This document shows, in pieces, positions 4,023 to 36,871 of a DNA stretch of 64,000 nt (position 1 is its first letter; each line of letters begins with the position of its first letter). The stretch lies in the NCBI RefSeq assembly GCF_900106065.1, contig NZ_LT629796.1, forward strand, positions 5,680,501 to 5,744,500. The letters run 5' to 3'. This DNA comes from Pseudomonas mandelii. GTDB lineage: Bacteria; Pseudomonadota; Gammaproteobacteria; Pseudomonadales; Pseudomonadaceae. Made by a program: the position numbers and the translations under genes. The notes beneath the pieces are model-generated. The model did no database searches. It had not been told where the DNA came from and saw only the letters and a program-made list of their open reading frames with translations.

Positions 4023-4946
4023 ATGCCAAAATCCATTGTCGCAGCGTTACAAATCGGCGCCTTGCCCGGCGGCAAGACCGAGACCCTGGAACAGATTCTT
4101 GCCTGGGAAAACGCGATTATCGAATCCGGCGCCGCGCTGGTGGTGATGCCCGAAGCGTTGCTCGGGGGTTATCCCAAAGGCGAGACGTTCGGCACTCAGC
4201 TGGGCTACCGACTGCCGGAAGGTCGCGAAGCGTTTGCCCGCTATTTTGCCAACGCCATCGACGTGCCCGGGGTCGAAACCGACGCCCTGGCCGGGTTGTC
4301 GGCGCGCACCGGGGCCAACCTGGTCATCGGCGTGATCGAGCGCGCCGGGAGCACGTTGCATTGCACGGCGCTGTATTTCGATCCGCAGGCCGGCCTGGTC
4401 GCCAAGCATCGCAAACTGATGCCCACGGGCATTGAGCGATTGATCTGGGGCAAGGGCGATGGCTCGACGTTGCCGGTGATCGACAGCCAGGTCGGGCGAA
4501 TCGGCGCGGTGGTGTGCTGGGAAAACATGATGCCGCTGCTGCGCACCGCGATGTACGCCAAAGGCATCGAGGTCTGGTGCGCGCCGACCGTGGATGAGCG
4601 CGAGATGTGGCAGGTCAGCATGCGCCACATCGCTCATGAAGGCCGTTGTTTTGTGGTCAGCGCTTGCCAGGTTCAGGATTCACCGCAAGCCCTGGGCGTG
4701 GAGATTGCCAACTGGCCGGCGGATCGGCCGCTGATTGCGGGCGGCAGTGTGATCGTCGGGCCCATGGGCGACATTCTGGCGGGGCCGTTGCGTGACGGGG
4801 CCGGGTTGCTCACCGCTGAAATTGACACCGACGACCTGGTCCGCGCGCGTTATGACTACGACGTGGTCGGTCACTACGCGCGCCCGGATGTGTTCGAGTT
4901 GAGCGTCGACGAGCGCGCCAGGCCCGGCGTCCGTTTCACCACATAA
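4023..4946 (+). CDS. Nitrilase (carbon-nitrogen hydrolase superfamily)
   Basis: A 307-residue nitrilase-superfamily enzyme with the full catalytic triad: Glu44 (MPEALLGGY), Lys131 (KHRKLMPTG) and Cys165 ([12 protein letters not shown]). The CWEN surrounding and the [10 protein letters not shown] stretch match true nitrilases, which convert nitriles to carboxylic acid and ammonia, rather than amidases. The exact substrate cannot be read. The ATG at 4023 is chosen because homology begins at [12 protein letters not shown]; the longer frame from 3894 would overlap the divergent LysR start. The final 105 bases lie in a long direct repeat whose decayed copy is at 36191-36260. Confidence 0.85.
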
Positions 4947-4972
4947 CCGTCACTGGTTGAACAGCATCATCC

Positions 4973-5071
4973 CTGTAGGAGCGAACCTGCTCGCGAATGC
5001 GGTGTGTCAGAAAACACATGTATTGACTGACACTCCGCATTCGCGAGCAGGCTCGCTCTCACAGGGGATAT
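4973..5071. repeat. REPIN hairpin, left copy
   Basis: Inverted arms carrying GCGAACCTGCTCGCGAATGCG and its near complement (GCATTCGCGAGCAGG...) flank a loop of about 40 bases. The loop at 4999-5038 is the reverse complement of the loop in the right copy (36313-36352), while the arms keep the same orientation; see findings. Confidence 0.85.
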
Positions 5072-5324
5072 TCATTGTCGGTATGGCCGAGTTCCGGCTG
5101 TCGACCCCGGCAAGCTCAGTTTTCCGGTGTCGACGAAGCGCACCGTTCCAAACCCGCCAGTTTGCCGCGTAACACGTAGGGAAGATTATTCAGTGTCTGC
5201 GTCTGGCTCAGCCCCAACGTCTGGCGCAACACCGAGAACGCCGAAACGCTCAGCACGGTTTCGGAAAAGCGTGCAATCGAGCCCGATTGATCGCTGACGC
5301 CGGACGCCATGCCATGGCTGGCCA
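5072..5324 (-). pseudogene. Broken 3' fragment of LEA type 2 lipoprotein gene
   Basis: In reverse, this encodes the C-terminal part of the LEA/WHy lipoprotein found intact at 36386-36871 (shared GVSDQSGSIARFSETVLS and SVLRQTLGLSQTQTLNNLPY). The N-terminal half, including the lipobox, is missing. A 12-base deletion removes four residues, and a 7-base deletion near 5153 shifts the frame before the end. An ORF at 5116-5388 reads through this fragment into unrelated sequence and is not a real gene. Confidence 0.88.
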
Positions 5325-5354
5325 CGCTGCTGACCCAACAGCATTCACGTGCTG

Positions 5355-5588
5355 TCATCGGTTGTTCTTGTCCCTGGTATGCAACCATTCCTGCCAGGCT
5401 TGTCGGTATTTTTCATCCGCCCGTTTTTTCGCGTCAGAAAATTTATGGATGGTCTGCGCCGAAACGGGCTCGTTCAACAATGTGTAGGCTTGATCGTTCA
5501 AACGGTCGGCTTCAAAAAACAACGCCCTGCTATGGCTGATCGATTTAAGGTTGGTTGCATGCGGCGAGGCTGATTCATTGATGGCCAT
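5355..5588 (-). CDS. Small hypothetical protein at island left edge
   Basis: A 77-residue soluble, charged protein (MAINESASPHATNLKSISHS at the start; KRADEKYRQAWQEWLHT near the end) with no signal peptide. An AAGGAG ribosome site sits just upstream of the ATG at 5586-5588, which supports translation. It lies right inside the left island boundary, downstream of the zinc-ribbon gene and in the same direction, so the two may share a transcript. I do not recognise the family. Confidence 0.6.
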   Translation of the reverse strand: MAINESASPHATNLKSISHSRALFFEADRLNDQAYTLLNEPVSAQTIHKFSDAKKRADEKYRQAWQEWLHTRDKNNR

Positions 5589-5676
5589 GGTCGTACTCCT
5601 TCTGGAAGCACAAGAAGGTGAGCTCGGTGTCCTGATCCCCCCTCAACTTTCCATATTGAGACAACCGCGCCCGGTT

Positions 5677-6174
5677 CTATTCGTCACGTGTCCAGTTGAC
5701 GCTCAAGCCATACTTATCATCGCCGTACCGGTAATCAGAGTTCCCTTTGAACGCGGCTTCCAGTGCATGGCCCAGGCGATTCGCGAGATGGATGCCGGTC
5801 GTGGTCACGATTAGAGCAGCCGCTGAGTCGGTAAGGCCGATGATGCGCTCCAGGGCATGCTCGGCTTTTTCCTTTTTTTCGGTGTTTTTGATCAGGTTGA
5901 TGATTTCATTTCGATGCTTGAGCAAGAAGCTGCCCGATAACGTGAGCGTCCCCGCTGGCATGTTGTCATCGATGCGTCGGCAGGCTGGGCACGTCACTGT
6001 TTGCGCATCATGAATGACCGTGTTTTCGGGGTGTTTCCAAGTCCAGTTCCCGGCTTGATAGACCGCGTCACACTGCGGGCAGATGGCTGAACCTTCAACC
6101 CGCTGCGAGCAATAGGGGTCATGAGTGGATGTTTTGAACAGCTTGCTTTTTTGACTCTGCTGAAACTTGTCCAT
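5677..6174 (-). CDS. BCAM0308-like zinc-ribbon protein
   Basis: A 165-residue protein with two CxxC pairs, CPQCDAVY near residue 33 and CPACRRID near residue 63, forming a likely zinc ribbon. A Trp-rich NWTWKHP segment lies between them, followed by a helical region (KKEKAEHALERIIGLTD) and an LANRLGHALEAAF stretch. This matches the family NCBI names BCAM0308, whose namesake lies in the low-oxygen-activated locus of Burkholderia cenocepacia (from memory). Function is unknown. An Anr-like box at 6310-6323 is suitably placed upstream for this minus-strand gene. Confidence 0.75.
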   Translation of the reverse strand: MDKFQQSQKSKLFKTSTHDPYCSQRVEGSAICPQCDAVYQAGNWTWKHPENTVIHDAQTVTCPACRRIDDNMPAGTLTLSGSFLLKHRNEIINLIKNTEKKEKAEHALERIIGLTDSAAALIVTTTGIHLANRLGHALEAAFKGNSDYRYGDDKYGLSVNWTRDE

Positions 6175-6492: not shown

Positions 6493-8109
6493 ATGGCTCA
6501 CACTAAAATCGTGTTTCGTGCTGCAGCCCGCGAGAAAATCCTGAGTGGCGCCACACAGTTGGCAGACGCCGTGCGAGTGACGTTGGGGCCAAAATCAAAA
6601 TCGGTGCTGATCCAGAGTAAATGGGGCAATCCAACGGTCTGCAATGATGGCGTCACGATCGCCAAACGCATTGACTTGCTCGACCCCGAGGAAAACCTGG
6701 GCGCGCAAATGCTGCGTCAGGCGGCCGAACGCACAGGCGATGCGGTAGGGGACGGGACCAGTACGTCAACGGTGCTGGCCCATGCAATCCTGGCCGATGG
6801 CATCCGTAACGTCGTCGCGGGTGCCAGTGCAATCGACCTCAAGCGCGGCCTGGATCGCGGGCTGTCGTTGGTCGTCGAATCCCTGGCCGCCCAGTCACGT
6901 CCGGTCAGCACCCCCAAGGAAAAGGCCCAGGTCGCCACGCTGTCGGCGCATAACGATGCCGTCATCGGTCAGCTGGTGGCAGACGCCCTGGAAAAGGTCG
7001 GCGTTGAAGGCGTCGTCAGTGTCGAGGAATCCAAGACCACCGAAACAGTGGTCGAAGTCATGGAAGGCATGCGGTTTGACCGGGGTTATGTCTCACCCTA
7101 TTTCGTGACCGATGCCGAGAAGATGCAGGTCGAACTCGATGACGCCTACTTGCTGCTTTGTGACCATAAGATCGGTGCACTCAAAGACTTGCTGCCCTTG
7201 CTTGAACTCGTGGCTAAAAGCGGGCAACCACTGGTTTTGATCGCGGATGATATCGAGGGAGAGGCGTTGACCACGCTAGTCGTCAACCAGATACGCGGTG
7301 TTCTGCGAGCGGTGGCGATCAAGGCTCCGGGCTTTGGTGATCGGCGCAAGGAAATGTTGCAGGACATGGCCGTTCTGACGGGGGCAACGGTGGTTTCCAG
7401 CGAACTGGGCGTCACTCTGGAACAGGTGGAACTGAACCAGTTGGGACGTGCACATCGAGTCGTGGTGCAAAAAGACAGCACGGCGCTGATAGGGGGCGCC
7501 GGTACGCGCGAGGCCATCGAGGCGCGTTTGCAGCAGATCCGTGCGCAACTAGACAGTACCACCAGCGATTACGACCGTGAAAAGCTTCAGGAACGACTGG
7601 CAAGGCTGTCTGGCGGTGTTGCGGTGATCCGGGTCGGGGCGCCTTCCGAAGCCGAAATGAAGGCGCGCAAGGATGCGCTGGATGATGCCATCTCAGCGAC
7701 CCGGGCGGCGATCGCCGAAGGCATTGTGCCGGGGGGTGGTCTTGCGTTGCTCAAGGCCGTCCCGATTATCGCAGCCGAAGAGGCCCGATATGAGGGCGAT
7801 GCCAGGACCGGCTTGCAGATTCTTCGCCGGGCGCTGGAAGCTCCGGCCAGACTCATCGCTGAAAATTCGGCAGTGGATGCCGGCGTCGTGGTTGCGCGCA
7901 TGCTCGCGGAACCTGGGAACATTGGCTTCGATGCGTCTGCCAATTGCTATGTCGACATGTACGAAGCCGGCATCATTGACCCGACCAAGGTGGTGCGTAT
8001 TGCCCTCGAAAATGCTGTTTCAGTCGCCAGTATCTTGCTGCTGACCGAGGCGACCATGACGGATATTCCGGAAAAGGAATCACCAGCCCAGGCCCCTTTC
8101 CCTGAATGA
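6493..8109 (+). CDS. groEL: GroEL-type chaperonin paralogue (no GroES partner)
   Basis: A 538-residue Hsp60 chaperonin. The start ([20 protein letters not shown]) and the ATPase motifs [11 protein letters not shown] (Asp87) and [10 protein letters not shown] (Asp52) are intact. The apical domain and the GGGLALLKA segment of the second equatorial half are present. It lacks the Gly-Gly-Met C-terminal tail of housekeeping GroEL and ends in Pro/Glu-rich sequence. No groES lies next to it, and the Anr-like box upstream replaces the usual heat-shock context, so it is probably an accessory, low-oxygen-induced chaperonin. Whether it makes homo-rings, or mixed rings with the main GroEL, cannot be told. 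Confidence 0.92.
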
Positions 8110-9182: not shown

Positions 9183-9243
9183 TCTCGCCTCCACGTCGTC
9201 TGCGGACTTTTCGGCAGTGTGAAGAAGGGAAGGCCCGCTCCGA

Positions 9244-9257
9244 TTGATATTGATCAA
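9244..9257 (-). promoter_or_regulatory. Anr/FNR box (perfect palindrome), for the kinase gene
   Basis: TTGATATTGATCAA is an exact TTGAT-N4-ATCAA. Centred at -41.5, it predicts a leftward start near 9209, 27 bases before the phosphotransferase ATG. The same 14-mer with similar flanks recurs at 27803. Confidence 0.75.
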
Positions 9258-9306
9258 GTACGGTGGAATGAAAGGCTGCTCCTCTTATGGGGGCTCACGT
9301 CGGTAG

Positions 9307-9320
9307 TTGATATTTATCAA
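9307..9320 (+). promoter_or_regulatory. Anr/FNR box (perfect palindrome), for Usp gene 1 operon
   Basis: TTGATATTTATCAA is an exact match. Predicted rightward start near 9355, about 87 bases before the Usp ATG. Confidence 0.75.
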
Positions 9321-9441
9321 CGTCAGGCACTTTCCGGCGGAGCAACCTGAATCAGCGCTGGTGCTTGGTCCGGCGTGGACGCAACGGCTGAGCCCTACGA
9401 GGCCAACGGCAGGCGTTGAACCCTCTGCCTGGAGTCAGACC

Positions 9442-10329
9442 ATGAGCCAGTATCAACAACTGTTACTCATCCTCCACCTGGCCCTGCGCCATTCTCCGGC
9501 AATCGACCATGCAGCAGCGCTCGCCAGGGCCAGCGGTGCACGTTTGCATATTGCGACGTTGATTCCTGCGTTGAAACTGTTGTCGCTGCTCGAAGAAGGC
9601 GACCGGGAAAAGGCTCGGGAGCGTTACCTGCAGGACCATCACGATTGGCTGGAGGACCAGTCCAAACTTCTGCGTGGCAGAGGGATCGAGGTGACCACCG
9701 AGGTGGCGTGGGCTGATGACATGGAGCAAGACATCCTGGATCACGTCAAGGAATTGCAGCCCGACCTGTTGATTAAGGAAATCCAGCAAGAATCAGCGCT
9801 CAAGCGCACGTTTTTCACCCCGCTGGACTGGCACTTGCTGCGCCACTGTCCGGTACCGGTTTATCTGGTGGGCGGGGCTCACCATGTCCTGCCGCGCAGG
9901 ATTGTGGCGGCGGTTGATGCTTCGGCGGGTGGGCCTGAGAACAGTGAGTTGAATGACCGCATTATCCACCAGGCTTCCAGCCTCGCCATACAGTGTGATG
10001 CCGAGTTGCACCTGCTGTATGCCTATGACATTACGGAAGACTACCTGGAGGAATTGGGCGGTGGCTTGAAACTGTCGGAGCTGACCAAGGGGCTGCGCAA
10101 AGAGCTGGAACAATCGTTTCTGAAACTCGCCGGTCGGTACGGTGTGCCTGCTAACCGTCGACATTTCATTCTGGGACATCCCGTTTCGGCGCTGAGCGAG
10201 TTCGCCAACAAGCACAACATAGATGTGATCGTGATGGGCAGAGTCCAGTACCACGGGGTGGAGAAACTGCTGGGCAGCACGACCGAACATATTCTGTATC
10301 AGGTGCCCTGCAGTGTCCTGGCGGTCTAG
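9442..10329 (+). CDS. Tandem universal stress protein 1 (UspE-like)
   Basis: A 295-residue protein with two Usp domains. The first covers about 1-145, with a degenerate ATP site. The second covers about 150-295 and ends VMGRVQYHGVEKLLGSTTEH, which carries the G-x-G and GST-type phosphate-binding pattern. Double-domain Usp proteins of this type are Anr-controlled and needed for anaerobic survival in P. aeruginosa (established for PA3309 and PA4352). The ATG follows a GGAG site; the long upstream extension to 9307 is rejected because it would read through the Anr box. It is about 75% similar by eye to the gene at 28020 and probably leads the operon that follows. Confidence 0.9.
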   Translation: MSQYQQLLLILHLALRHSPAIDHAAALARASGARLHIATLIPALKLLSLLEEGDREKARERYLQDHHDWLEDQSKLLRGRGIEVTTEVAWADDMEQDILDHVKELQPDLLIKEIQQESALKRTFFTPLDWHLLRHCPVPVYLVGGAHHVLPRRIVAAVDASAGGPENSELNDRIIHQASSLAIQCDAELHLLYAYDITEDYLEELGGGLKLSELTKGLRKELEQSFLKLAGRYGVPANRRHFILGHPVSALSEFANKHNIDVIVMGRVQYHGVEKLLGSTTEHILYQVPCSVLAV

Positions 10330-10361
10330 GGACGGACCGAAGACGACTCAAGGTGGCAAAC

Positions 10362-12121
<1,760 letters not shown>

Positions 12122-12125
<4 letters not shown>

Positions 12126-13105
12126 GCCTCCCACCGCGGTCCCAGGACATTGCTCTCGACCTGCTGCGGGACATGGTGCGTATCCGTCGTCTTGAGGAGC
12201 GCGCTGGCGAGTTGTACGGGGAGGGCAAGATTCGTGGCTTTCTGCACCTGTACATCGGTGAAGAAGCGGTCGCCGTCGGCGTACTGCATGCACTGGCAGC
12301 CAACGATGCGGTGGTCGCGACGTATCGCGAACATGGCCACGCCCTGATCAAGGGCGTCCCCATGAAAGCAATCATGGCCGAAATGTATGGGCACCAGGAA
12401 GGATGCTCGCGAGGGCGCGGCGGCTCAATGCACCTGTTTGATGCCACGACACGATTCTTCGGGGGCAATGCCATTGTCGCGGGTGGCTTGCCACTGACGG
12501 TGGGTCTGGCACTCGCTGAACGTATGCAAGGTGGAGCGCGTCTTTCAGCCTGTTTTTTTGGTGAAGGCGCGATGGCGGAAGGGGCTTTCCACGAGTCCAT
12601 CAACCTGGCCGCATTGTGGCAACTGCCGATGCTGTTTTGCTGTGAAAACAACCTCTATGCGATGGGGACTGCCCTGGACCGTTCGCAGTCGCAAACGGAC
12701 CTGTGTGTGAAAGCCTCGGCCTACAAAGTCGATACCCGGTCCGTCGATGGCATGGACGTGATCGCGGTGTATGACGCCGCTCGTGATGCGGTTGAACACA
12801 TCCGTGCGGGGCGTGGGCCTTTTTTTCTGGAGTTTCGCACCTATCGGTTTCGCGCCCATTCGATGTTCGACCCACAGCTGTATCGTGACAAGGACGAGGT
12901 GGAGCAATGGAAGACCCATGGGCCGATCCATACGTACAGTGCACAGCTTAAGGCCGAGGGCCTTTTGGACGAACCCGGATTTCTGGCGATCCTCGCCCAG
13001 GTGGACGCTGAAGTGGAAGCCGCCGTTACTTATGCCGAAAGCGGTAGCCTGGAGCCGCTCGAGGATTTGTCTCGCGATGTCTACACCCCAAGGGCGGCGC
13101 CATGA
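12122..13105 (+). CDS. 2-oxoacid/acetoin dehydrogenase E1 component, alpha subunit
   Basis: A 327-residue thiamine-diphosphate enzyme subunit of the PDH/AcoA type. The ThDP/Mg motif spans 147-177 ([17 protein letters not shown] to CENN), with the [10 protein letters not shown] active-site segment near 98-107 and phosphorylation-loop-like FRAHSMFDP near 245. The start and end overlap both neighbours by four bases (ATGA), so translation is coupled. Pyruvate, acetoin or a branched 2-oxoacid are all possible substrates; the small size and GGSMH segment fit pyruvate or acetoin. Confidence 0.87.
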
Positions 13106-14088
13106 GCATTCGTATGAGCTATCGCGAGGCGCTGCGCGAGGCAATACGTGAGGCGCTGCAGCGGGACCCACGGGTATTTCTGATGGGCGAAGACGTCGGT
13201 CGCTACGGTGGCAGTTATGCCGTGTCCCTGGGGTTGCTTGAGGCGTTTGGCCCCGAGCGCATTCGAGACGCGCCATTGTCCGAGCTGGGTTTCGTGGGAG
13301 CCGGTATAGGGGCGGCTTTGGGGGGCATGCGGCCGATTGTCGAAATCATGACCGTGAACTTCAGTCTGCTCGCCCTCGATCCGTTGATGAATACGGCTGC
13401 TGCCTTGAGGCACATGTCCGGTGGACAGTTCTCCGTGCCCCTGGTTGTGCGCATGGCGACAGGCGCCGGACGCCAGCTTGCGGCGCAACATTCGCACAGC
13501 CTGGAGGGCTGGTACGCCCATATTCCCGGGCTGAAAATCCTGGCGCCGGCGACCATCGAAGATGCACGCGGCATGCTCTGGCCAGCGCTGCTGGATCCGG
13601 ACCCGGTGCTGATATTCGAACACGCCCAGCTCTACAACCTGGAGGGTGATGCGGGCGAGTGGGAGACGGTGGACATCAGCTCCGCCAAGGTCCGCCGAAC
13701 CGGCAAGGACCTGACCCTGATCACTTACGGCGGCACACTCGGCAAGACCTTGGAGGCTGCGCAGGTACTGGCCGGGGAGGGCATTGATTGCGAAGTCATC
13801 GACCTGCGTGTCCTGCGCCCTCTGGATGACAAGACTTTGATGGCTTCTGTCTGCAAGACCCGTCGGGCCCTGGTGGTCGATGAGGGATGGCGCAGCGGCA
13901 GTCTATCCGCCGAGATCATTACACGGATCATAGAACAAGGCTTTTTCGAGCTGGATGCACCGCCGGCACGGGTGTGCAGCGCCGAAGTGCCGATACCTTA
14001 TCCCCGGCATCTGGAAGAGGCAGCCCTGCCACAAGTGTCGACGATCGTCGCGGCCGCTCATGAACTGTGCCGGGGGACATCAGGGTGA
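13102..14088 (+). CDS. 2-oxoacid/acetoin dehydrogenase E1 component, beta subunit
   Basis: A 328-residue transketolase-type beta subunit, partner of the upstream alpha gene. Family segments are clear: [20 protein letters not shown] at the start, [31 protein letters not shown] near 55-75, and [20 protein letters not shown] near 230. The C-terminal domain ([15 protein letters not shown]) binds E2 in related complexes. Start overlaps the alpha gene by four bases. There is a short gap of 46 bases before E2. Confidence 0.88.
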
Positions 14089-14134
14089 GCGCAATGACGT
14101 GGCGTATTCAAGTATCAGGCCAGGAAGGTAAACG

Positions 14135-15253: not shown

Positions 15254-15264
15254 GGAGAGGGCAT

Positions 15265-15543
15265 ATGAACCCGCAAATGATCCGCGATGAAGTATTGAAA
15301 GCCTTGAAAAGCATTGCCCTGGAACTTGAAATCGAGCAGTTGCGATCTGATCGGTCACTGCGCGAAGAGGTTGATCTGGATTCCATGGATTGGCTTCGTG
15401 TCATCGAGGCTCTGAATCGGAGCCTGGGAATTGCAATTCCTGAAAGCGATTACCAACACGTGGACACCCTGGACAAGCTCATCGCCTATCTGGGGCAAAA
15501 GGCGAAATCCGGCGAAGCCGAGCCTTCGATCCGCAAGGGGTGA
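15265..15543 (+). CDS. Acyl carrier protein-like protein
   Basis: A 92-residue acidic protein with the carrier fold. The phosphopantetheine site is Ser40 in EVDLDSMDWLRVIEAL, similar to the DSL/DSM of acyl carrier proteins. It starts at an ATG after a strong GAGGAGAGG site, 11 bases past the E2 stop, so it is the last gene of the synthetase-E1-E2 operon. A carrier protein inside a 2-oxoacid dehydrogenase operon is unusual; it may take acyl groups from the synthetase or from E2. Its C-terminal tail (SGEAEPSIRKG) extends past the usual domain end. Confidence 0.82.
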   Translation: MNPQMIRDEVLKALKSIALELEIEQLRSDRSLREEVDLDSMDWLRVIEALNRSLGIAIPESDYQHVDTLDKLIAYLGQKAKSGEAEPSIRKG

Positions 15544-15632
15544 AGGTACCGGGCAGCAGTGCCGTCACGCATTGTTTGCCACTCAAACGGTGAGCCGATC
15601 GAATCGTCGGTTGCCACCGGTTCCGCCCTGAT

Positions 15633-26049: not shown

Positions 26050-26101
26050 CTTTTTCAACGTCAGGCACTCCCCATTGTCTTTGATCGGCCTCTTCATCTG
26101 C

Positions 26102-27067: not shown

Positions 27068-27105
27068 GCATTGGCTCCTTTGAGGCTTATCGAACAGTTG
27101 CGCCA

Positions 27106-27672
27106 TCATCGGGCAGCACCATGACGCAACACTTCAATGCAGAACTCCATTTCGTAGGGCGGGACGTTGCATTCGACGATGTCATGGGCGGCAACTTGCA
27201 GGTGCACGCCGACAATGTCGGCACGGATCGGTTGCTGGCAAACATGCCGGTCAACCAATACCGCAGTGTAGACCCGACGAGCGCCCAGCTGCGCCAAATA
27301 GGCACAGGTGCGCAGAAGGGAGTGGCCTTCAAAAAGCACATCGTCGACAACAAGCAGGGTGGTATTGGCAAGGTCCAGCTCGCCCAGAAGTGGGTTCTCA
27401 GTCAATTCCGTCTGTGCATGCAGGACCTTGAGGTCATCGGCATAACGCTTGACCTTCAGGGGGTAAAGCGGCAGTTCTGGCTGGCCGGTCTGACGCGAAA
27501 GATGCTGCTGTAAGCGCTGTGCCAGCGGCTCGCCGCGACGCTGGATGCCAATCAGTGCCGATTGAGCGGGCGGCAACAATATCGCCGCTTGGCGAGCCAT
27601 CGCCTGCAGCACGCCATCGAGTTCATCGCTGTCGTACAAGCGCAAACGCTGACTCGCAAGTTGGGTCGACAT
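27106..27672 (-). CDS. PyrR-like phosphoribosyltransferase
   Basis: A 188-residue type I phosphoribosyltransferase similar to PyrR (uracil phosphoribosyltransferase / pyr attenuator). Typical segments are ALIGIQRRGEPLAQRL near 40 and the loop TLLVVDDVLFEGHSLLRT near 105-122. In PyrR the loop normally reads VDDVLYTGRT; here TGRT is replaced by EGHS, so PRPP binding may differ. Tandem placement with a PRPP synthetase suggests the two work together in nucleotide salvage (inference). A strong AGGAGA site precedes the ATG. Confidence 0.8.
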   Translation of the reverse strand: MSTQLASQRLRLYDSDELDGVLQAMARQAAILLPPAQSALIGIQRRGEPLAQRLQQHLSRQTGQPELPLYPLKVKRYADDLKVLHAQTELTENPLLGELDLANTTLLVVDDVLFEGHSLLRTCAYLAQLGARRVYTAVLVDRHVCQQPIRADIVGVHLQVAAHDIVECNVPPYEMEFCIEVLRHGAAR

Positions 27673-27802
27673 TGTCGTCTCCTGTCGAAAGCCGGTGCGG
27701 TGGGGGCATCACACCATCAAGGAACCGGCAAGCATCAAAGTCCTGAGCACAGCAAAAATGCCGTCCCATTTTGCCAACGTAATCCTGCTCGGCCCGGCCC
27801 TG

Positions 27803-27816
27803 TTGATATTGATCAA
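27803..27816 (-). promoter_or_regulatory. Anr/FNR box (perfect palindrome) for PyrR-like/Prs operon
   Basis: TTGATATTGATCAA is identical to the box at 9244, and the flanks (AAGTACGGTG-AATGAAA) are also shared. Predicted leftward start near 27768. Confidence 0.75.
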
Positions 27817-27881
27817 GTACGGTGAAATGAAAGCCCGATCCATGACCCGCATTGGTCCAATGAACGGCGTTACGCGGGGAT

Positions 27882-27895
27882 TTGATATAAATCAA
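27882..27895 (+). promoter_or_regulatory. Anr/FNR box (perfect palindrome) for Usp gene 2
   Basis: TTGATATAAATCAA is an exact match. Predicted rightward start near 27930, about 90 bases before the Usp ATG, the same spacing as at the first Usp gene. Confidence 0.75.
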
Positions 27896-28019
27896 CGCCA
27901 GGGCGACATCAACAGAGGACGCTGAATCAACGCGGGTGCCTGATCCGGCGCAGGCGTTACGACTAGTCTCAGCAATGGGGCAGCGATGGACGTCGAGTCC
28001 CCCTGTATGGAGTCAGATC

Positions 28020-28904
28020 ATGAGCCAATATCAACGCTTGTTACTCATCATCAACCCGGCCCTGCGCCATTCCCCAGCGATAAACCATGCGGCCGCTCTG
28101 GCCAAGGCCAGCGGCGCGAGCTTGCATATTGCTGCGCTTGTAAAGCCGTTGGAGATACTGTCACTGCTTGACGAAGGCGTGCAGGAAAAAGCCCGGGAAA
28201 GCTACCTTCAGGACCATCGCGACTGGCTGAAAAACCAGGCAACCAATCTCAATGCGCTGGGGCTCAAAGTGACGACAGAGGTGATGTGGGCCGACGACAT
28301 GAAGCAAGACATTCTTGATCACGTCACGGAAATGCAGCCCGACCTGCTGATCAAAGAAGTGCAGCACGAATCAGCGCTCAAACGCGCGTTCTTCACCCCG
28401 CTGGATTGGCATTTGTTGCGCCACTGCCCGATACCAGTCTATCTGGTGGGCGGCGGTGGTCATGCCTTGCCGCGCAAGGTCGTGGCGGCGGTTGACGCGT
28501 CGGATACGGCGCCTGCGGACAGCGAGCTGAACGAGCGGATCATTCAGCAAGCCACCAATCTGGCGTTGCAGTGCGATGCCGAGCTGCACCTGCTGTATGC
28601 CTGCGATCTTTCAGGGGTCTATCTGGCAGACATGGGGGGGCTGGCGCTTCCAGACATCACCAAAGAGTTGCGCACCACCGAGGAACAATCGTTCAGCAAA
28701 TTGGCCGGTCGGTACGGCGTCCCCTCTGACCGTCGGCATTTTGTTCTCGGACATCCGGTCGCGGCGTTGAGCGATTTTGCCAACGAGCAGCAGGTGGATG
28801 TGATCGTGATGGGCCGAGTCCAGTACCACGGCCTGGAGAAGCTGCTGGGCAGCACGACCGAACATATTCTGTACCAGGTGCCTTGCAGTGTTCTGGCAGT
28901 CTAG
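28020..28904 (+). CDS. Tandem universal stress protein 2 (UspE-like)
   Basis: A 294-residue double Usp-domain protein and close paralogue of the gene at 9442. Shared blocks include SPAINHAAALAKASGA, FFTPLDWHLLRHCP and VMGRVQYHGLEKLLGSTTEH; the last ends the second domain and carries the ATP-phosphate pattern. Upstream sequences of both genes, including two Anr boxes each and the GGAGTCAGA leader, are also alike, so the whole promoter-gene unit was duplicated. Likely cytoplasmic and induced when oxygen runs out. Confidence 0.9.
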   Translation: MSQYQRLLLIINPALRHSPAINHAAALAKASGASLHIAALVKPLEILSLLDEGVQEKARESYLQDHRDWLKNQATNLNALGLKVTTEVMWADDMKQDILDHVTEMQPDLLIKEVQHESALKRAFFTPLDWHLLRHCPIPVYLVGGGGHALPRKVVAAVDASDTAPADSELNERIIQQATNLALQCDAELHLLYACDLSGVYLADMGGLALPDITKELRTTEEQSFSKLAGRYGVPSDRRHFVLGHPVAALSDFANEQQVDVIVMGRVQYHGLEKLLGSTTEHILYQVPCSVLAV

Positions 28905-28961
28905 CCGGACAAGGCCATGGTGTAACGAAACGACAGGCGTCATCGCCTGAGGAGGTTTTTC

Positions 28962-29669
28962 ATGAGTCAAAGCCCCTCATTACAAACCACATTGGAGGAC
29001 CGGGCAGAAGCCGGTCGACGTCTGGTGGAACCGTTGCTCAAATACGCCCATCGACCCGATGTCATCGTCCTCGCCTTGCCCCGTGGCGGCGTTCCGGTTG
29101 CCTATGAAGTGGTCAAGGCCCTGGACGTGCGCCTGGACCTGATGCTGGTGCGCAAACTGGGCGTGCCGTCCAACCCCGAGTTCGCCATGGGTGCCATCGC
29201 CAGTGGCGGTATCCAGATCCGAAATGAAGAAGCGCTGCGGGCTCACCCGATTTCCCCGGCCGCATTCGACGCCGTGGTCGCGCGTGAAACACGGGAATTG
29301 CAGCGGCGGGAGCACCTGTACCGGGGCGCCCGGCCACCCTTGCAGCTCAAGGGGCAGGTGGTGATTCTGGTGGATGACGGCCTGGCGACGGGCGCCTCGA
29401 TGATGGCGGCGATCCGCGCGGTGCGTATGCAGGCACCTGCTCGTATCGTCGTTGCCGTACCGGTTGCGCCGCGGGAAACGGTGGACACGCTGAGCTTCGA
29501 AGTCGATGAGGTGATCTGCCCACTCATACCTGAATGGATGATGTCGATCGGGTATTGGTACTTGAGTTTCCCCCAGACCTCGGACGAAGAAGTCATTGAT
29601 TTGTTGCAACGGGCCTGGCAGCGAGAAGCCGCCACCGATTCCGCCTCGCGGGAACCTTTCGATGATTAA
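28962..29669 (+). CDS. Phosphoribosyltransferase-domain protein
   Basis: A 235-residue protein with a type I phosphoribosyltransferase core. VLALPRGGVPVAYEV near 27-41 and the canonical PRPP loop VILVDDGLATGASM near 136-149 are intact. MSIGYWYLSFPQTSDEEVIDLL near the end is typical of a group often fused to, or next to, alpha/beta hydrolase and erythromycin-esterase-like domains. The substrate base is unknown. It starts 57 bases after the Usp gene behind a GAGGAGG site and overlaps the next gene by 8 bases. Confidence 0.85.
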   Translation: MSQSPSLQTTLEDRAEAGRRLVEPLLKYAHRPDVIVLALPRGGVPVAYEVVKALDVRLDLMLVRKLGVPSNPEFAMGAIASGGIQIRNEEALRAHPISPAAFDAVVARETRELQRREHLYRGARPPLQLKGQVVILVDDGLATGASMMAAIRAVRMQAPARIVVAVPVAPRETVDTLSFEVDEVICPLIPEWMMSIGYWYLSFPQTSDEEVIDLLQRAWQREAATDSASREPFDD

Positions 29670-30318
29670 GCCTCAATCTCGACAGCTGGAATTGCGTGAG
29701 GTTGAGTTATCGGCCGATCTGCGTCTGCCGCTGCAGACTGACGGTCTGGTGATCTTCGTGCACGGTAGCGGCAGTGGCCGTCTGAGCCCACGCAATCAGT
29801 TTGTCGCAGAGTCCTTGGCCAAGCGGGGGCTGGCGTCGCTGCTGTTCGACCTGCTCACGGAGCCAGAGCAACGCCTGGACAACCTCACCGGGGAGCTGCG
29901 TTTCGATATTGCCTTGCTCGCCAGGCGACTGGTGGACGTCATCGACTGGGTCGGTCGGGACGTGGAGTTGCACTCGCTGCGAATCGGTCTGTTCGGCGCA
30001 AGCACCGGTGCTGCGGCGGCGTTGTTGGCGGCGGCCGTGCGCCCGGAGGTGGTGCATGCGGTGGTCAGCCGCGGAGGGCGCACCGACCTGGCGGGGGCGG
30101 CATTGTCGCAGGTGAGGGCACCCACTCTGCAAATCGTAGGTGCCCAGGACCCGGTGGTGCTCGAACTGAATGATCAAAGCAGTCAGGCCTTGCGGTGTGA
30201 GCAGCAGCTGGAAATTGTGGCGGGCGCGACTCATCTTTTCGAAGAACCTGGAGCCCTTGAAGAAGTCGCCAGACTCGCTGGCGACTGGTTCGAGAAGTAT
30301 TTGCACGACCCCGCCTGA
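29662..30318 (+). CDS. Dienelactone-hydrolase-like alpha/beta hydrolase
   Basis: A 218-residue alpha/beta hydrolase. The oxyanion HGSGSGRLSPRN loop lies near 32-43, the nucleophile elbow is GLFGASTGAAAA near 113-124 (Ser in GAST-G), followed by the acid in VGAQDPVV near 158 and the His in GATHLFEEPGAL near 194. The start ATG 29662 lies inside the phosphoribosyltransferase 3' end (8-base overlap), so translation is coupled. Substrate unknown. Confidence 0.85.
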   Translation: MIKPQSRQLELREVELSADLRLPLQTDGLVIFVHGSGSGRLSPRNQFVAESLAKRGLASLLFDLLTEPEQRLDNLTGELRFDIALLARRLVDVIDWVGRDVELHSLRIGLFGASTGAAAALLAAAVRPEVVHAVVSRGGRTDLAGAALSQVRAPTLQIVGAQDPVVLELNDQSSQALRCEQQLEIVAGATHLFEEPGALEEVARLAGDWFEKYLHDPA

Positions 30319-30334
30319 CAACGCCTGATCGGCC

Positions 30335-31702
30335 TCACACGCCAAACGGATAGGTTTCGTCTTCCGGTTCGAGTCTCTGGCTTTTCGGTAGCGCCAGTGC
30401 TGTCACGGGTTGGGTCTGTTCAATCCAGATCATGGCGTCGAACTGTTCGGCCAGCGTCGCTTCGAAGTAGTGACTGCCACGCTCGGTTTCAGGGCGGTAA
30501 ATCACCCCGATGGCCCGTTCCAGCAACGGTTTGGACAGCACACGGCGCAGCGCTTTGCGCGTTGGGTCTCGCCAGTCGGTCAATGACGCCGGCACACCCG
30601 CCTTGAGAAACTGGTGCTCCCAACTGTCCGGGCGAGAGGGCCGGATGTCCTTGATGAGCATGTCGCCGTCCCAGTCATCGGCTGCGGCCACCTGGCCACG
30701 GTCGGTGCTCATGCCGATCAGTACGGCATCGCGCCCATAAGCACTGCGGCACAGCTGACCGATGTTGAACTGACCCTTCCAGCCCATTTCCGTCGCAGCC
30801 GCGTTGCCGATATGAGAATTGTGCGCCCAGACCACGGCTTTGGCTTGTGGACCCCGGTGCTCAAGCAGTGCCCGAAGTGTGTCGAACATGTGCCGGTCAC
30901 GCAGGTTCCACGAGGCGGTCGACCCTCGATAAATCGCACGGTAATACTGTTCCGCCGCCTGCACCACCCGAGCGTTTTGCGCCGCATTGAAGAAGGCCTC
31001 GTCGTTCTGGATAAGCCCGGCCAGTTGTTCGGCCAGCATGGCGTCGAGCTGTTCAATCACCGGTTGCTCACAAGGCATCAAGCCGGCACGTTCGACGAAG
31101 TGACCATACAACGCGGGATCATCCTGCCAAGGGGTCAGACAGCCATAGCGCCGCCGGGCCTCGTGGGCCAGCTGTGGGTCGACCCGGTCCAGATAACTCA
31201 GCACCTCATGGATGGAGTTGCGCAAGCTGTAGACGTCCAGCCCGCGGAACTCGACGCGACGTTCAGTGGCGAGGGTGTGGTTGTAGAGATGCAGCCAGTG
31301 GGCGAATGCTCTCACGTCGGTGTTGCGCCACATCCAGGTCGGGAATCGGCTGAAGATGTGACGTTTCCACGCCGAGTGTGCCAACCCCCGGACATACTGG
31401 TCGACATGGCCGGCGTCCGGCCAGTCGGCTTCAACGGCCACAATGTTGAACCCGTGTTGCTCAATCAGCCTTTGGGTGATCGCTGCCCGGGTTCGATAAA
31501 AATCACTGGTGCCATGACTGGCCTCACCAATCATCACCACGCGCGCATCCGCATAGCGATCGAACATTTCACCAAAGGCGGATGAGTCCAGCGCCGGCAG
31601 AGGCTCAGCGTATTGGCGCAGAAGCGGTGCGATGGCAGCCTGGTCAATGTGCCGAGGTGAGCCATACAGGTTATCCAGCATGTCTTGGGAGGGTGTGTTC
31701 AT
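30335..31702 (-). CDS. Erythromycin-esterase-like (EreA/ChaN superfamily) protein
   Basis: A 455-residue member of the erythromycin esterase family. Catalytic-site residues are seen in MIGEASHGTSDFYRTRAA near 57 (Glu/His), VEADWPDAGHVDQY near 89, and WAHNSHIGNAA near 292 (His). Most members are not antibiotic esterases, and together with the adjacent phosphoribosyltransferase and hydrolase (domains fused in some bacteria) this one is more likely part of a metabolic or repair unit. It is convergent with the hydrolase (17-base gap). Confidence 0.83.
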   Translation of the reverse strand: MNTPSQDMLDNLYGSPRHIDQAAIAPLLRQYAEPLPALDSSAFGEMFDRYADARVVMIGEASHGTSDFYRTRAAITQRLIEQHGFNIVAVEADWPDAGHVDQYVRGLAHSAWKRHIFSRFPTWMWRNTDVRAFAHWLHLYNHTLATERRVEFRGLDVYSLRNSIHEVLSYLDRVDPQLAHEARRRYGCLTPWQDDPALYGHFVERAGLMPCEQPVIEQLDAMLAEQLAGLIQNDEAFFNAAQNARVVQAAEQYYRAIYRGSTASWNLRDRHMFDTLRALLEHRGPQAKAVVWAHNSHIGNAAATEMGWKGQFNIGQLCRSAYGRDAVLIGMSTDRGQVAAADDWDGDMLIKDIRPSRPDSWEHQFLKAGVPASLTDWRDPTRKALRRVLSKPLLERAIGVIYRPETERGSHYFEATLAEQFDAMIWIEQTQPVTALALPKSQRLEPEDETYPFGV

Positions 31703-32747: not shown

Positions 32748-33674
32748 ATGGCCCACTATCAACGCTTGCTGCTGATCGCCAACCCAAACCTCAAAGAGGC
32801 CCCAGCCTTGCTGCGTGCCATCGCCCTGGCCAGGGCCAGTGGAGCCATGCTGGATGTACGAGCCTTTATCGAACCGGCGGCCATGGCGCATGTGTGGGAA
32901 GAGAACAGAGACGAGGAGGGGGACCAGCGATATCAGCGCCATTATCTCCACTGGAGGGACCAGACACTTCAGGGGCTCAATGCACAGGGATTGGACGTGA
33001 ACGTGCAAGTTGTCTTCACCTGCGAACCACTGCTCGACATCGTGAAGTGTGTAGAAGAGCTCAAGCCCGACCTGGTCATCAAGGATGTCACGGTGGACCC
33101 GGTACTTGGACGGGTGTTCGTCACACCTCTGGATTACCATTTGCTGCGCGGGTGTCCCGTTGCGTTGCACCTGGTCAACCAGGTCCATGATGAGTTGCCT
33201 CATCAGATCGTCGCCGCTGTGGACCTGTTTGATACGGTCACACAAATCCGTGATGTGAACGATGCCATTATTCAGGCAGCTCATACGCTGGCCGTGCAAT
33301 GCGACGCATCGCTGCACCTGCTTTACGCCTATGACTTATCGCCTGCATTCAATGGCGATACGCCGCTGATCACCGGCTGCTGGAATGTGGCCTTCATGGA
33401 TGAGTTGCGAGCGTCCCTTCATCAGGCCTTCAACACCCTGGCTGAGCGCTATGGCATTGCTCCAGAGCGCCGGCATTTTTTCATGGGGCTGCCGATGCCG
33501 GTGATCAGTGCATTTGTCGATGATTACCAGGCTGACGTCGTGGTGATGGGCACCTTGCATCGGGTGGGTACTAATCGATTCATCGGCAGCACTATGGAGC
33601 GCGCGCTGTATTCGTTGCAGGGCAGCATTCTGGCGGTCAGACAATCAGACTCGTTCGTGGAAGAGAAGATGTGA
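32748..33674 (+). CDS. Tandem universal stress protein 3 (UspE-like)
   Basis: A 308-residue double Usp-domain protein, more distant from the other two. The first domain begins YQRLLLIANPNLKEAPALL; FVTPLDYHLLRGCPVAL ends it. The second ends VVMGTLHRVGTNRFIGSTMERAL, which keeps the G-x9-GST phosphate-binding pattern. A charged tail (SDSFVEEKM) extends beyond the domain. It may be transcribed with the P-type ATPase downstream, although 223 bases separate them. Confidence 0.9.
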   Translation: MAHYQRLLLIANPNLKEAPALLRAIALARASGAMLDVRAFIEPAAMAHVWEENRDEEGDQRYQRHYLHWRDQTLQGLNAQGLDVNVQVVFTCEPLLDIVKCVEELKPDLVIKDVTVDPVLGRVFVTPLDYHLLRGCPVALHLVNQVHDELPHQIVAAVDLFDTVTQIRDVNDAIIQAAHTLAVQCDASLHLLYAYDLSPAFNGDTPLITGCWNVAFMDELRASLHQAFNTLAERYGIAPERRHFFMGLPMPVISAFVDDYQADVVVMGTLHRVGTNRFIGSTMERALYSLQGSILAVRQSDSFVEEKM

Positions 33675-33897: not shown

Positions 33898-36180
33898 ATG
33901 CTCAGTAAGTGGCTGGACCCTGTTCTGTTGCTGCTCACCGCACTGACGCTGCTGGCCGGCGGCATTGCGTATGTTGCGCAAGCACCTGATTGGGCATCGA
34001 GGTGCTGGGCCGCCGGAAGTCTGGTGATGGCTGCGGTACTGCTCCTTGAAATCGTCAGGCGCCTGGCCCGGCGCGAGGCCGGTGTCGACCTGATCGCGCT
34101 GCTGTCGATCACTGCCGCCCTGGTCTTTGATCAGACACTGGTGGCAGCGGTGATTGCGTTAATGCTGGCGACCGGACGGACCCTGGAGTTTTTCACCAAG
34201 CAACGCGCCGACCGTGAGCTTCGTGCGCTCATCGACCGGGCGCCACGTTTTGCCTGGCTGCAGGAGGAGGGCGGCTTACGCGAGATCCCCGTTGAGCAGG
34301 TCCAGCTGAATCAGACATTGCTGGTGCGGCTGGGGGAGGTGATACCGGTCGACGGTCGGTTGCTAAGTCCTGCGGCCATTCTGGACGAATCGGCGCTCAG
34401 CGGTGAGTCGTTGCCCGTCACCCGTCGAGAAGGAGAGCAACTGCCCAGCGGCGTTTCCAATGTCGGTGCCCCCATCCTGATAATCGCCACGCGAACGGCC
34501 GCGCAGAGTACCTATGCCGGCATAGTGCGGCTGGCCGAGGAGGCACGTCGTTCACGCGCACCTTTCGTGCGCCTGGCCGACCGCTATGCATTGTTCTTCA
34601 TCCCGCTGACGTTGCTGATTGCCGGATTGGCCTGGCAATTGAGTGGTGATCCTTTGCGAGCGCTGGCGGTACTGGTGGTGGCCACACCTTGCCCTTTGAT
34701 TCTGGCCGTACCGATTGCCATCATGTCGGGGATTTCCAGGGCAGCGCGGCGCGGGATACTGATCAAGGACGGCGTGACCCTGGAAGCGTTGGCCGGAGTC
34801 AAGCAGGTGTTCCTCGACAAGACCGGCACGCTGACCAGCGGCCATGCCCGTCTGCAGTCGATAGAGGTCAACGGACTGGTCGATCCGCAGCGCCTGCTTG
34901 GCCTGGCCGCTTCGCTGGCGCAGGCCTCGACGCACCCTGTCTCCCAGGCCATCGTTGAGGCGGCGCATCAGCGTCAATTGCCTCTGAGCGTCCCACAGGA
35001 AGTAGAAGAAAGCCCCGGCTCTGGACTTTGTGGGCAAGTCGATGGCGTGCAGGTGCGTTTCGGCTCGTTGTCTTTCGCTCACAAAGACGCCCCTGAAACT
35101 GACTGGGTCGCCGCCATGCTGCGCCACATGGATTACCTGGCGTGCAGTGGAAGCTTCATCGATGTGGATGGGCAACTCGCGGGCCTGCTGGTTTTCTCGG
35201 ACAAGGTTCGGCGCGAAACGCCACAGACTCTGCATCGACTGCGTAATCGGGGCATCGAAAAGATAGTCATGCTCACCGGGGATCGCCTGGAAACCGCCGA
35301 GATGATTGCGCTATCTGCCGGGATTGACGAGCTGCGTGCCGGGTTGACCCCTGAGGATAAAGTGCGTGCTGTACAGGAAGGTTGCCTGCGCACCAGCACA
35401 CTGATGGTCGGTGATGGCATCAACGATGCCCCGGCCCTGGCGGCGGCCACCGTCGGCGTAGCCATGGGGGCCAGCGGTGCCACTGCTTCTGCACAAGCCG
35501 CAGGTGTTGTGTTGCTGGTGGATCGGCTGGATCGTCTGGTCGAGGCGCTGGACATTGCCCGACGCACCCGCTACATCGCCCGTCAGGGTGTGCTGGTCGG
35601 CATGGGGATGTCGTTGCTGGCCATGGCGGTGGCGGCCCTCGGTTACCTGCCGCCGCTGATTGGCGCCGTGGTGCAGGAGGGTATCGACGTGGTGATTATC
35701 CTTAACGCCTTGCGGGCACTGGGGCCGTTGTGGGTGCTGAGGAAACGAAAGCTTGCCGCAGAACATATCGATCGCCTGCAAGATGAACACCAGCAACTCT
35801 CCACCGTACTGAGCGATCTGCATCAACTGGCCAATGACTTCGCCCGGCGTCCACTGGCGCAAGCACAGACCGACCTGGTGCAACTGGTCGACAAGCTGCA
35901 AACATCACTGGCGCAGCATGAACACGAAGATGAAAACATACTGTACCCGCTGCTGACGCGAAGCATGCCGGGCGAGGACCCGATGTCGGCTATGAGCCAC
36001 GCTCACCGGGAGATTTTTCGCCTTATCCATTTACTGACGCGCATGAGTAACGACTTCAGTTCCGACCCCGCAACGGCATCTGCTGATGAGATCCAGCATC
36101 AGTTGATTCGTCTGGATACCCTCGTGCGACTGCACTTTGATCAGGAGGAGGAACTGTTTCGTTATCTGGATTGGCGCTAG
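33898..36180 (+). CDS. P1B-type cation ATPase with C-terminal hemerythrin domain
   Basis: A 760-residue heavy-metal-type P-ATPase. The ion site is TPCP with Cys265, the phosphorylated Asp307 lies in DKTGTLTSG, and the hinge is MVGDGINDAPAL near 503. There is no N-terminal CxxC metal domain; the protein starts directly with membrane helices. After the last helices (ends NALRALGPLWVL) residues 622-760 form a hemerythrin/HHE-like helical bundle with iron-ligand candidates His631, His674, Glu678 region, AHREIF and HFDQEEELF. That domain could sense oxygen or iron and gate transport (inference). The ion is not predictable. Confidence 0.87.
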   Translation: MLSKWLDPVLLLLTALTLLAGGIAYVAQAPDWASRCWAAGSLVMAAVLLLEIVRRLARREAGVDLIALLSITAALVFDQTLVAAVIALMLATGRTLEFFTKQRADRELRALIDRAPRFAWLQEEGGLREIPVEQVQLNQTLLVRLGEVIPVDGRLLSPAAILDESALSGESLPVTRREGEQLPSGVSNVGAPILIIATRTAAQSTYAGIVRLAEEARRSRAPFVRLADRYALFFIPLTLLIAGLAWQLSGDPLRALAVLVVATPCPLILAVPIAIMSGISRAARRGILIKDGVTLEALAGVKQVFLDKTGTLTSGHARLQSIEVNGLVDPQRLLGLAASLAQASTHPVSQAIVEAAHQRQLPLSVPQEVEESPGSGLCGQVDGVQVRFGSLSFAHKDAPETDWVAAMLRHMDYLACSGSFIDVDGQLAGLLVFSDKVRRETPQTLHRLRNRGIEKIVMLTGDRLETAEMIALSAGIDELRAGLTPEDKVRAVQEGCLRTSTLMVGDGINDAPALAAATVGVAMGASGATASAQAAGVVLLVDRLDRLVEALDIARRTRYIARQGVLVGMGMSLLAMAVAALGYLPPLIGAVVQEGIDVVIILNALRALGPLWVLRKRKLAAEHIDRLQDEHQQLSTVLSDLHQLANDFARRPLAQAQTDLVQLVDKLQTSLAQHEHEDENILYPLLTRSMPGEDPMSAMSHAHREIFRLIHLLTRMSNDFSSDPATASADEIQHQLIRLDTLVRLHFDQEEELFRYLDWR

Positions 36181-36190
36181 AAGATCAAGT

Positions 36191-36260
36191 CGCGCGCGTT
36201 AGGACTACGACGTGATCGGTCACTACGCGCGCCCGGCCCGGCGTCCGTTGCACCGCATAA
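36191..36260 (+). pseudogene. Nitrilase 3'-end remnant
   Basis: The frame corresponds to the last residues of the nitrilase at 4023-4946 ([12 protein letters not shown] then PGVRFTT in the intact gene), but 35 bases are missing inside and nothing upstream belongs to a nitrilase. It is the leftover of the core gene end in the right repeat copy. Confidence 0.85.
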
Positions 36261-36285
36261 CCGTCACTGGTTGAACAGCATCACC

Positions 36286-36383
36286 CCTGTGGGAGCGAGC
36301 CTGCTCGCGAAGACGGAGTGTCAGTCAATGCATGTGTTTTCTGACACACCGCATTCGCGAGCAGGCTCGCTCCCACAGGGGAT
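36286..36383. repeat. REPIN hairpin, right copy
   Basis: Arms GGGAGCGAGCCTGCTCGCGA and complement GCGAGCAGGCTCGCTCCCAC surround a 40-base loop (36313-36352), which is inverted compared with the left copy at 4999-5038. Confidence 0.85.
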
Positions 36384-36385
36384 AT

Positions 36386-36871
36386 TCATTGTCGGTATGA
36401 CCGAGTTCCGGCTGTCGACCCCGGCAAACTCAGCTTCCCGGTGTCCACGAAGCGCACCGTTCCAAACAAGCCGCCCGCCAGTTTGCCGCGTAACACGTAG
36501 GGAAGATTATTCAGTGTCTGCGTCTGGCTCAGCCCCAACGTCTGGCGTAACACCGAGAACGCCGAAACGCTCACCGGCACGCTCAGCACGGTTTCGGAAA
36601 AGCGTGCAATCGAGCCCGACTGATCGCTGACGCCGGACGCCAGTGGCTGGCCATTGACTTCCAGATCCAGCGCCACGCCGTTGTAGTCGATCGGCGTTTC
36701 GTTGGGGTTCTGTACCCGGATCTTCACGGCAAAGCGCACTTCCATATCCTGGCTTTGCAGCGGCTCGATGCCGACCACGTTGATGTTCAACGGATCGCGA
36801 TGGGGGAAGAGGGCGCAGGCGCTCAGGGAGAGCAACAGCAGAGAAAGGATGACGGCGTGGACGCTGCGCAT
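36386..36871 (-). CDS. LEA type 2 / WHy-domain lipoprotein
   Basis: A 161-residue lipoprotein. The signal peptide runs to the lipobox LSLSAC (Cys about 19), followed by a Water-stress/Hypersensitive-response (LEA_2) beta-sandwich domain with VVGIEPLQSQDMEVRFAV and VQNPNETPIDYNGVALD. Such proteins are periplasmic, membrane-anchored and linked to desiccation tolerance in some bacteria; function here is unproven. Its 3' half lies in the right direct repeat, and a broken copy of that half is at 5072-5324. The gene itself is complete. Confidence 0.88.
   Translation of the reverse strand: MRSVHAVILSLLLLSLSACALFPHRDPLNINVVGIEPLQSQDMEVRFAVKIRVQNPNETPIDYNGVALDLEVNGQPLASGVSDQSGSIARFSETVLSVPVSVSAFSVLRQTLGLSQTQTLNNLPYVLRGKLAGGLFGTVRFVDTGKLSLPGSTAGTRSYRQ

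Follow-up and report, generated by a model that had tools for sequence, protein, structure and literature searches.

A 31-kb lxa-type segment of Pseudomonas mandelii between two nitrilase-REPIN-LEA junctions: an apparently integrase-free island

We describe a 31-kb segment of the genome of Pseudomonas mandelii that carries low-oxygen and stress genes of the lxa (low-oxygen-activated) type and is flanked on both sides by the same chromosomal gene junction, made of the end of a nitrilase gene, a REPIN palindrome, and part or all of a gene for a LEA-type lipoprotein. The segment lies in a stretch of 64,000 nucleotides (assembly GCF_900106065.1, contig NZ_LT629796.1, positions 5,680,501 to 5,744,500), hereafter the window, to which all coordinates refer unless a contig is named. 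We put at roughly two in three the probability that the segment behaves as an island without an integrase that carries homology to its own target. Sequence comparison with a second genome suggests that a molecule of 31-32 kb moved between species and entered at the REPIN between the nitrilase and LEA genes. The moving molecule would have been opened at the REPIN, either because an excised circle broke there or because a linear fragment was cut at one REPIN and at the other. The two resulting ends would then have paired with the nitrilase and LEA genes of the recipient, and host recombination with gap repair would have joined them into the site.

A gene junction present twice, and its empty form in relatives

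A first-pass annotation of this DNA had described two like-oriented copies of one locus that differ by indels of 35, 12, and 7 bases, among other changes, and both local alignment and BLAST bear this out. The direct repeats lie on the plus strand at 4842-5324 and 36191-36653, and each comprises the nitrilase 3' end, the REPIN palindrome, and the 3' half of the LEA gene. In addition to the three indels, the alignment has two small gaps at the right edge, one of 1 base and one of 3; in BLAST, the copies pair at 88.6% identity over 431 bp (E 7e-161) and at 95.7% over 46 bp (E 9e-14). As had also been proposed, the nitrilase is whole on the left and the LEA gene is whole on the right. The left flank contains an intact nitrilase/carbon-nitrogen hydrolase gene (4023-4946, plus strand; PF00795) with 91% DNA identity to a Pseudomonas locus that lacks the island (L009), and the right flank contains an intact LEA-type lipoprotein gene (36386-36871, minus strand; PF03168) and a xanthine/uracil permease gene (36929-38593, minus strand; PF00860). 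The broken counterparts are a LEA' remnant, the 3' half of the gene, in the left repeat (5083-5309, minus strand) and a nit' remnant in the right repeat (36191-36283, plus strand). When 40 of the 636 first-look candidates in the 7.04-Mb genome were scored, no third copy of the locus was found; the other matches listed belong to the REPIN part of the query. The duplicated piece need not have come from a distant strain, because the LEA' remnant is 96.9% identical to the intact LEA gene of the same strain (7 of 226 sites differ), and it appears to be of the strain's own type.

Both border REPINs are predicted to form strong hairpins. The left copy (4971-5066) has 48-nt arms that are 85% complementary, and its DNA fold (4972-5066) is predicted at -42.1 kcal/mol (z -12.7); the right copy (36284-36381) has 41-nt arms that are 93% complementary, with a predicted fold (36285-36380) of -49.2 kcal/mol (z -14.4). 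The interiors of the two copies are mutually inverted, with 91.8% identity in the inverted alignment versus 83.7% in the direct one, a detail absent from the first-pass annotation. It is as though the palindrome loop had flipped, perhaps via template switching on the arms. Four of the five matches to the REP pattern in the window fall inside the two border REPINs, and the fifth, with three mismatches, lies inside the island; the REPIN palindrome occurs in many copies in the genome of this strain. REPINs have been described as hairpin-forming REP doublets that are linked to RAYT transposases and regarded as mobile DNA (PMC3116915), and REPs have been named as possible recombination sites (PMC3390384).

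The state of the same site in relatives suggests which arrangement came first. We surveyed 80 named Pseudomonas loci around close relatives of the nitrilase, the best 80 of 248. In 54 of them the island is absent and 22-2360 bp separate the nitrilase and LEA genes; L033 and L034, both counted among the 54, share one contig. The ancestral order nitrilase-LEA, which had been postulated together with empty junctions in other Pseudomonas, is supported because these 54 loci have both genes side by side. The opposite pattern, which that annotation had named as contrary to its reading, with the block in place in all close relatives, was looked for and not found. The island occupies the nitrilase-LEA site in a single locus of the 80 (L052), that of P. 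mandelii 6A1. Among the other loci, eight have no LEA match but an adjoining permease gene, four stop at a contig edge, and 13 have other content. In 10 of these 13 (L042, L043, L045, L049, L050, L056, L064, L069, L074, and L018), about 8.4-8.6 kb separate the nitrilase from the next regulator (R3), with no LEA or permease match between; therefore, other DNA fills the same site in those loci.

Transfer into P. mandelii 6A1

The whole island is present at the same site on contig C197 of P. mandelii 6A1. Outside one patch of 0.95 kb, the island (5325-36190) is 99.1% identical between the two genomes (substitutions only, 29642 of 29913 sites, 99.09%), compared to 93.0% in the right flank (23170 of 24914) and 91.1% in the left flank (1897 of 2082). 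Identities in 1-kb windows do not overlap: the island minimum, with windows around the patch omitted, is 97.8%, and the right-flank maximum is 95.9%. In 50-bp windows, the step from 91-93% to 99% falls inside the repeats on both sides. Codons with synonymous differences make up 2.7% of the total in 22 island frames (239 of 8723), or 1.9% when three frames overlapping the patch are set aside (147 of 7931), versus 13.3% in 16 flank frames (864 of 6518). If the island dated back to an ancestor shared by the two species and had been lost elsewhere, its occurrence at the same site in both genomes would follow, and the 99% identity would have to reflect selection. We find this scarcely credible, given that synonymous differences in the island are low as well, that the remnants inside the 6A1 island are not of the 6A1 type, and that L009 and 53 other loci of the 80 have an empty site.

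The ownership of the remnants indicates a direction for the transfer. The LEA' remnant of 6A1 matches the intact LEA gene of the window at 96.6% identity (237 sites) and the LEA gene of 6A1 itself at 90.8% (239 sites); the nitrilase end and spacer of 6A1, just left of the REPIN, resemble L009 and not the window. Because the remnants in 6A1 are window-like and its own nitrilase end is L009-like, the entering molecule would have come from a window-like lineage, and the duplicated piece appears to be foreign in 6A1 and not in the window strain. A 12-bp deletion in LEA' and a 35-bp deletion in nit' are present in the remnants of both genomes and absent from the intact genes, so the remnants predate the parting of the two islands; a further 7-bp deletion in the LEA' of the window is not seen in 6A1. 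Dating of the duplication by percent identity was dropped, as remnant and gene (7/226) differ to the same degree as remnant and remnant (7/227).

These comparisons also bear on ordinary replacement, in which a linear chromosomal fragment from an island-bearing strain recombined through the flanks on both sides. The flanks are homologous at 91-93%, which makes a double-flank exchange possible, and the swapping of "replacement flexible genomic islands" by homologous recombination has been put forward in the literature (PMC4033161). However, identity returns to background within the repeats on both sides, so that donor identity does not run into the flanks, and the L009-like sequence just left of the REPIN in 6A1 points the same way. 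Replacement from a linear donor is already disfavoured on these grounds, and we judge it unlikely.

Because 6A1 keeps about 1 kb of a PolX-type gene that is absent from the window at 16429/16430, the donor was probably a relative of the window strain that did not have this loss. Given this longer PolX region, we rejected the window strain itself as the simplest choice of direct donor, unless the loss came later. Independent single crossovers at different points were set aside, since the remnant comparison makes one transfer from a window-like lineage to 6A1 simpler. The divergent patch (28850-29800), which is 77% identical to 6A1, spans the end of a universal stress protein gene, a phosphoribosyltransferase gene, and the start of a hydrolase gene, and points to the replacement of genes in one of the lineages at a later time. 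The donor of the patch could not be assigned, as both versions are similarly distant from those of six other carriers of island genes; G383 is nearer to the window version (82% versus 79%).

Both junctions in 6A1 lie inside the REPIN palindrome. At the left junction, the recipient REPIN passes into the donor side at CCCACAGGGG; at the right junction, donor sequence (CACCCC...GCGA) passes back into the recipient REPIN. The same 35 bp of recipient sequence are found at both (C197 2270-2304 and 34665-34699). The exchange does not appear to be a clean reciprocal crossover, after which only one of the two sides would have the REPIN centre of the recipient. The presence of recipient sequence at both junctions, together with a missing donor centre, is what would be expected from ends-in insertion with gap repair of a donor that was open at the REPIN. 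The first-pass annotation had proposed that the duplicated piece was brought in from another strain by one recombination with a homologous donor. A single exchange of a molecule with its own nitrilase-LEA homology is indeed seen in 6A1; two points of the proposal change, in that the piece in the window is of the strain's own type (LEA' at 96.9%) and need not be of distant origin, and that the exchange in 6A1 lies inside the REPIN.

The junctions could alternatively reflect a transposition-like move of a REP-bounded composite, with outward-facing REP halves as its ends and a REP-associated (Y1/HUH) transposase acting in trans. The insert in 6A1 starts with CCCACAGGGG, its other end is compatible with the inverse (3 of 10 bases are unread), and the 35-bp direct repeat flanks it. 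The window genome and 6A1 each have three PF01797 (Y1-type transposase) matches, for which a role in trans is possible, and REPINs are regarded as RAYT-linked mobile DNA (PMC3116915). On the other side, the ends are no more than the REP arms of the homologous locus, which is also where the insert sits, and not at a random REPIN. Such a move is in our view improbable. IS200/IS605-type Y1 enzymes are not known to leave a target duplication or to move 30 kb.

Several points weigh against the entry of a molecule opened at the REPIN. The island was found at this site in no more than two genomes, and ends-in gap repair rests on one junction pair. At the right junction of 6A1 four bases are read as N; by eye, the overlaps at the junctions measure about 4-5 bp, which is little for homologous exchange of the plain kind; and the 35-bp repeat could be read as a short target duplication. 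The left flank available in 6A1 extends only about 2.3 kb to the contig end. Four of the 16 flank frames have more nonsynonymous than synonymous differences and are probably not genes, which leaves 12 frames with 823 of 5046 codons. Between the LEA' remnants of the two genomes the difference is 3.1% (7 of 227; wide interval, 1.2-6.3%) versus an island average of 0.9%, where 99% identity would be expected on a simple reading; missing coding constraint may explain this excess, as synonymous change in the island is also above the average. A plasmid carrier was not found with the query 5325-30000, which returned 19 records with about 70-83% identity over at most 10% of the query, every one of them from a genus other than Pseudomonas (Rhodococcus, Leisingera, and Paracoccus among them), and there was no phage match for the query 12000-20200.

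These last results apply equally to the possibility that the segment is a former integrative and conjugative or mobilizable element, or a prophage, whose integrase has decayed. Its discrete borders and patchy distribution (18 of 398 genomes, its own included) are what such an element would have. However, the island has 81 frames of at least 100 amino acids, of which 27 were scanned with Pfam (the other 54 overlap these by half or more), and the 27 contain no domain of an integrase, transposase, relaxase, other recombinase, or phage; there is also no tRNA in the window, and the first-pass annotation had noted no integrase, transposase, or tRNA at the ends. The plasmid and phage searches also count against this origin, and the repeat is a chromosomal gene junction. 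We therefore consider a decayed element very unlikely.

An lxa-type cargo with a patchy distribution

The cargo appears to be of the lxa kind known from Burkholderia cenocepacia. The lxa cluster of that species is described as having about 50 genes, including six universal stress proteins and an FNR protein, as linked to anoxic survival, and as present in some strains only (PMC6127331, PMC4505428, PMC3759415, PMC6829993); its range, given as BCAM0275-BCAM0323, includes BCAM0308. Like lxa, the island has a BCAM0308-family gene (5677-6174, minus strand; NF040826, 176 bits against a cut-off of 100), three universal stress protein genes compared to six in B. cenocepacia (PMC6127331), FNR-type boxes, and a patchy presence. 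Unlike lxa, with its roughly 50 genes and its own FNR protein, the island is 31 kb long with 27 main frames scanned, in which we found neither a CRP/FNR nor a phosphoketolase or FtsH domain. NF040826, named lxa_BCAM0308 in NCBIfam, matched 3 of 200 genomes in a phylum sample, the genome of the window included, and none of 14 control genomes.

The island had been called rich in Anr boxes, and the count agrees. Eight Anr/FNR-type boxes with the motif TTGATNNNNATCAA (at most one mismatch, six perfect) lie on the plus strand between 6310 and 32673, starting at 6310, 6409, 9244, 9307, 20270, 27803, 27882, and 32660. All are in the island and none is in the rest of the window; for the window as a whole, 1.33 would be expected. 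The cargo probably supports low-oxygen survival under control of the host's Anr.

From left to right, the BCAM0308-family gene is followed by genes for a GroEL-type chaperonin (6493-8109, plus strand; TIGR02348), a universal stress protein (9307-10329, plus strand; PF00582), and an acetate--CoA ligase (10353-12125, plus strand; NF003313). The real start of the universal stress protein gene is probably downstream, because an Anr-type box occupies 9307-9320. A pyruvate-dehydrogenase-type set follows on the plus strand (12122-15253), with E1 alpha at 12122-13105 (PF00676), E1 beta at 13102-14088 (PF02779/PF02780), and E2 at 14135-15253 (PF00198), then a nitroreductase-family gene (15690-16265, plus strand; PF00881) and the PHP half of the PolX-type gene (16440-17279, plus strand), which matches only positions 305-569 of profile NF006375 at 279 bits, below the cut-off of 426. 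Acetate kinase (PF00871) and a bifunctional enoyl-CoA hydratase/phosphate acetyltransferase (NF006045) are encoded on the minus strand (17415-20122), and a dikinase of the phosphoenolpyruvate-synthase type (PF01326) and an alpha-glucan phosphorylase (TIGR02094) on the plus strand (20369-25365). Beyond these are minus-strand genes for a flavin reductase-like protein, a ribose-phosphate diphosphokinase (TIGR01251), and a phosphoribosyltransferase (25501-27672), a second universal stress protein gene (27936-28904, plus strand; PF00582), a gene for an erythromycin-esterase-fold protein (30335-31702, minus strand; PF05139), and a third universal stress protein gene (32748-33674, plus strand; PF00582). 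The stretches 9232-10329 and 27791-28904, each a universal stress protein gene with upstream Anr boxes, are duplicates at 74% identity. A second relative of the window from 31993 to about 33640 (acetyltransferase and universal stress protein) is found on another contig of 6A1 (C171:5347-7031), at 73% identity. The island ends with a gene for a heavy-metal P-type ATPase with a C-terminal hemerythrin domain (33898-36180, plus strand; PF00122/PF01814; TIGR01525), a fusion that may couple the transport of metal to the sensing of oxygen or iron.

Of 398 sampled Pseudomonas genomes, 18 match a 3.45-kb stretch of the island, and of 293 relatives, 14 match its left edge; the genome of the window is included in both counts. 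Among the 17 other carriers of the 3.45-kb stretch, 35-60 kb were read in each of six, and none of these has a nitrilase or LEA gene beside the island genes. The site itself was checked in 10 of the 17: it is empty in five (G383, G211, G183, G355, and G114), with the nitrilase and LEA genes 155-1647 bp apart, and in the other five the nitrilase and/or LEA gene was not found at the threshold used. In G383, a cluster collinear with the island, with some pieces missing and at 84-95% identity, has further stress genes in its vicinity, together with genes for a CRP/FNR-type regulator, phosphoketolase, and FtsH. Because this collinear cluster adjoins such genes, the island of the window looks like a part cut out of a larger lxa-type cluster.

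Precedents and meaning

The nearest mobility precedent that we found for an island without an integrase is the microcin H47 island of Escherichia coli. It is reported as 13 kb long with direct repeats of 144-148 bp at 76% identity, and its excision and integration were shown experimentally to be independent of RecA (PMC3191183, PMC5426353). The two have in common long imperfect direct repeats at the borders and the lack of a recombinase of their own, as judged here from the scanned frames. In H47, recombination is described as taking place in identity segments of the repeats with functions provided by the host (PMC3191183, PMC5426353). For the island described here, one transfer can be read from the 6A1 junctions and may have proceeded in a similar way, and no excision was seen. 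Because H47 is excised without RecA, the host function in this case need not be RecA. Unlike H47, the present island is 31 kb long, its repeats consist of a REPIN-bearing chromosomal gene junction and measure about 0.46-0.48 kb, and its transfer between species is read from sequence only.

The exchange site is a hairpin-forming REP doublet, as are the REPINs described from Pseudomonas (PMC3116915, PMC3390384). It differs from REPINs as such in that the REPIN here is the junction of a whole 31-kb island and not a mobile element by itself. The arrangement in 6A1 also resembles Campbell-type insertion, in which a single crossover is accompanied by gap repair ("ends-in" integration). This process is known mainly from work with laboratory plasmids; it shares with the 6A1 island the duplicated homology around the insert, the hybrid repeats, and the recipient sequence at both junctions, and differs in that here the pattern is read from natural genomes. 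Literature searches on lxa, in general and in Pseudomonas, on REPINs in genomic islands, and on REP recombination listed, within the paper collection searched, no paper that we recognised as describing this island.

We conclude that this is a real, recently transferred, and apparently integrase-free island with a known kind of cargo and unusually readable junctions. Integrase-less islands are known already, but there have been few direct readings of how such islands move. In 6A1, sequence of the donor type can be distinguished from that of the recipient type at either end of a single natural transfer between species, with the changeover inside a palindrome. We speculate, tentatively and with more doubt than confidence, that REPIN palindromes are natural break-and-join points, and that chromosomal blocks leave and enter Pseudomonas genomes without a mobility gene, being released where the REPINs of two flanking junctions break or recombine and then gap-repaired into the same REPIN of another species. 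If so, any two REPIN-bearing gene junctions could make a mobile island. The island described here is also a case in which a cluster for survival at low oxygen, of the lxa kind known from Burkholderia, has apparently passed between pseudomonads as a unit.

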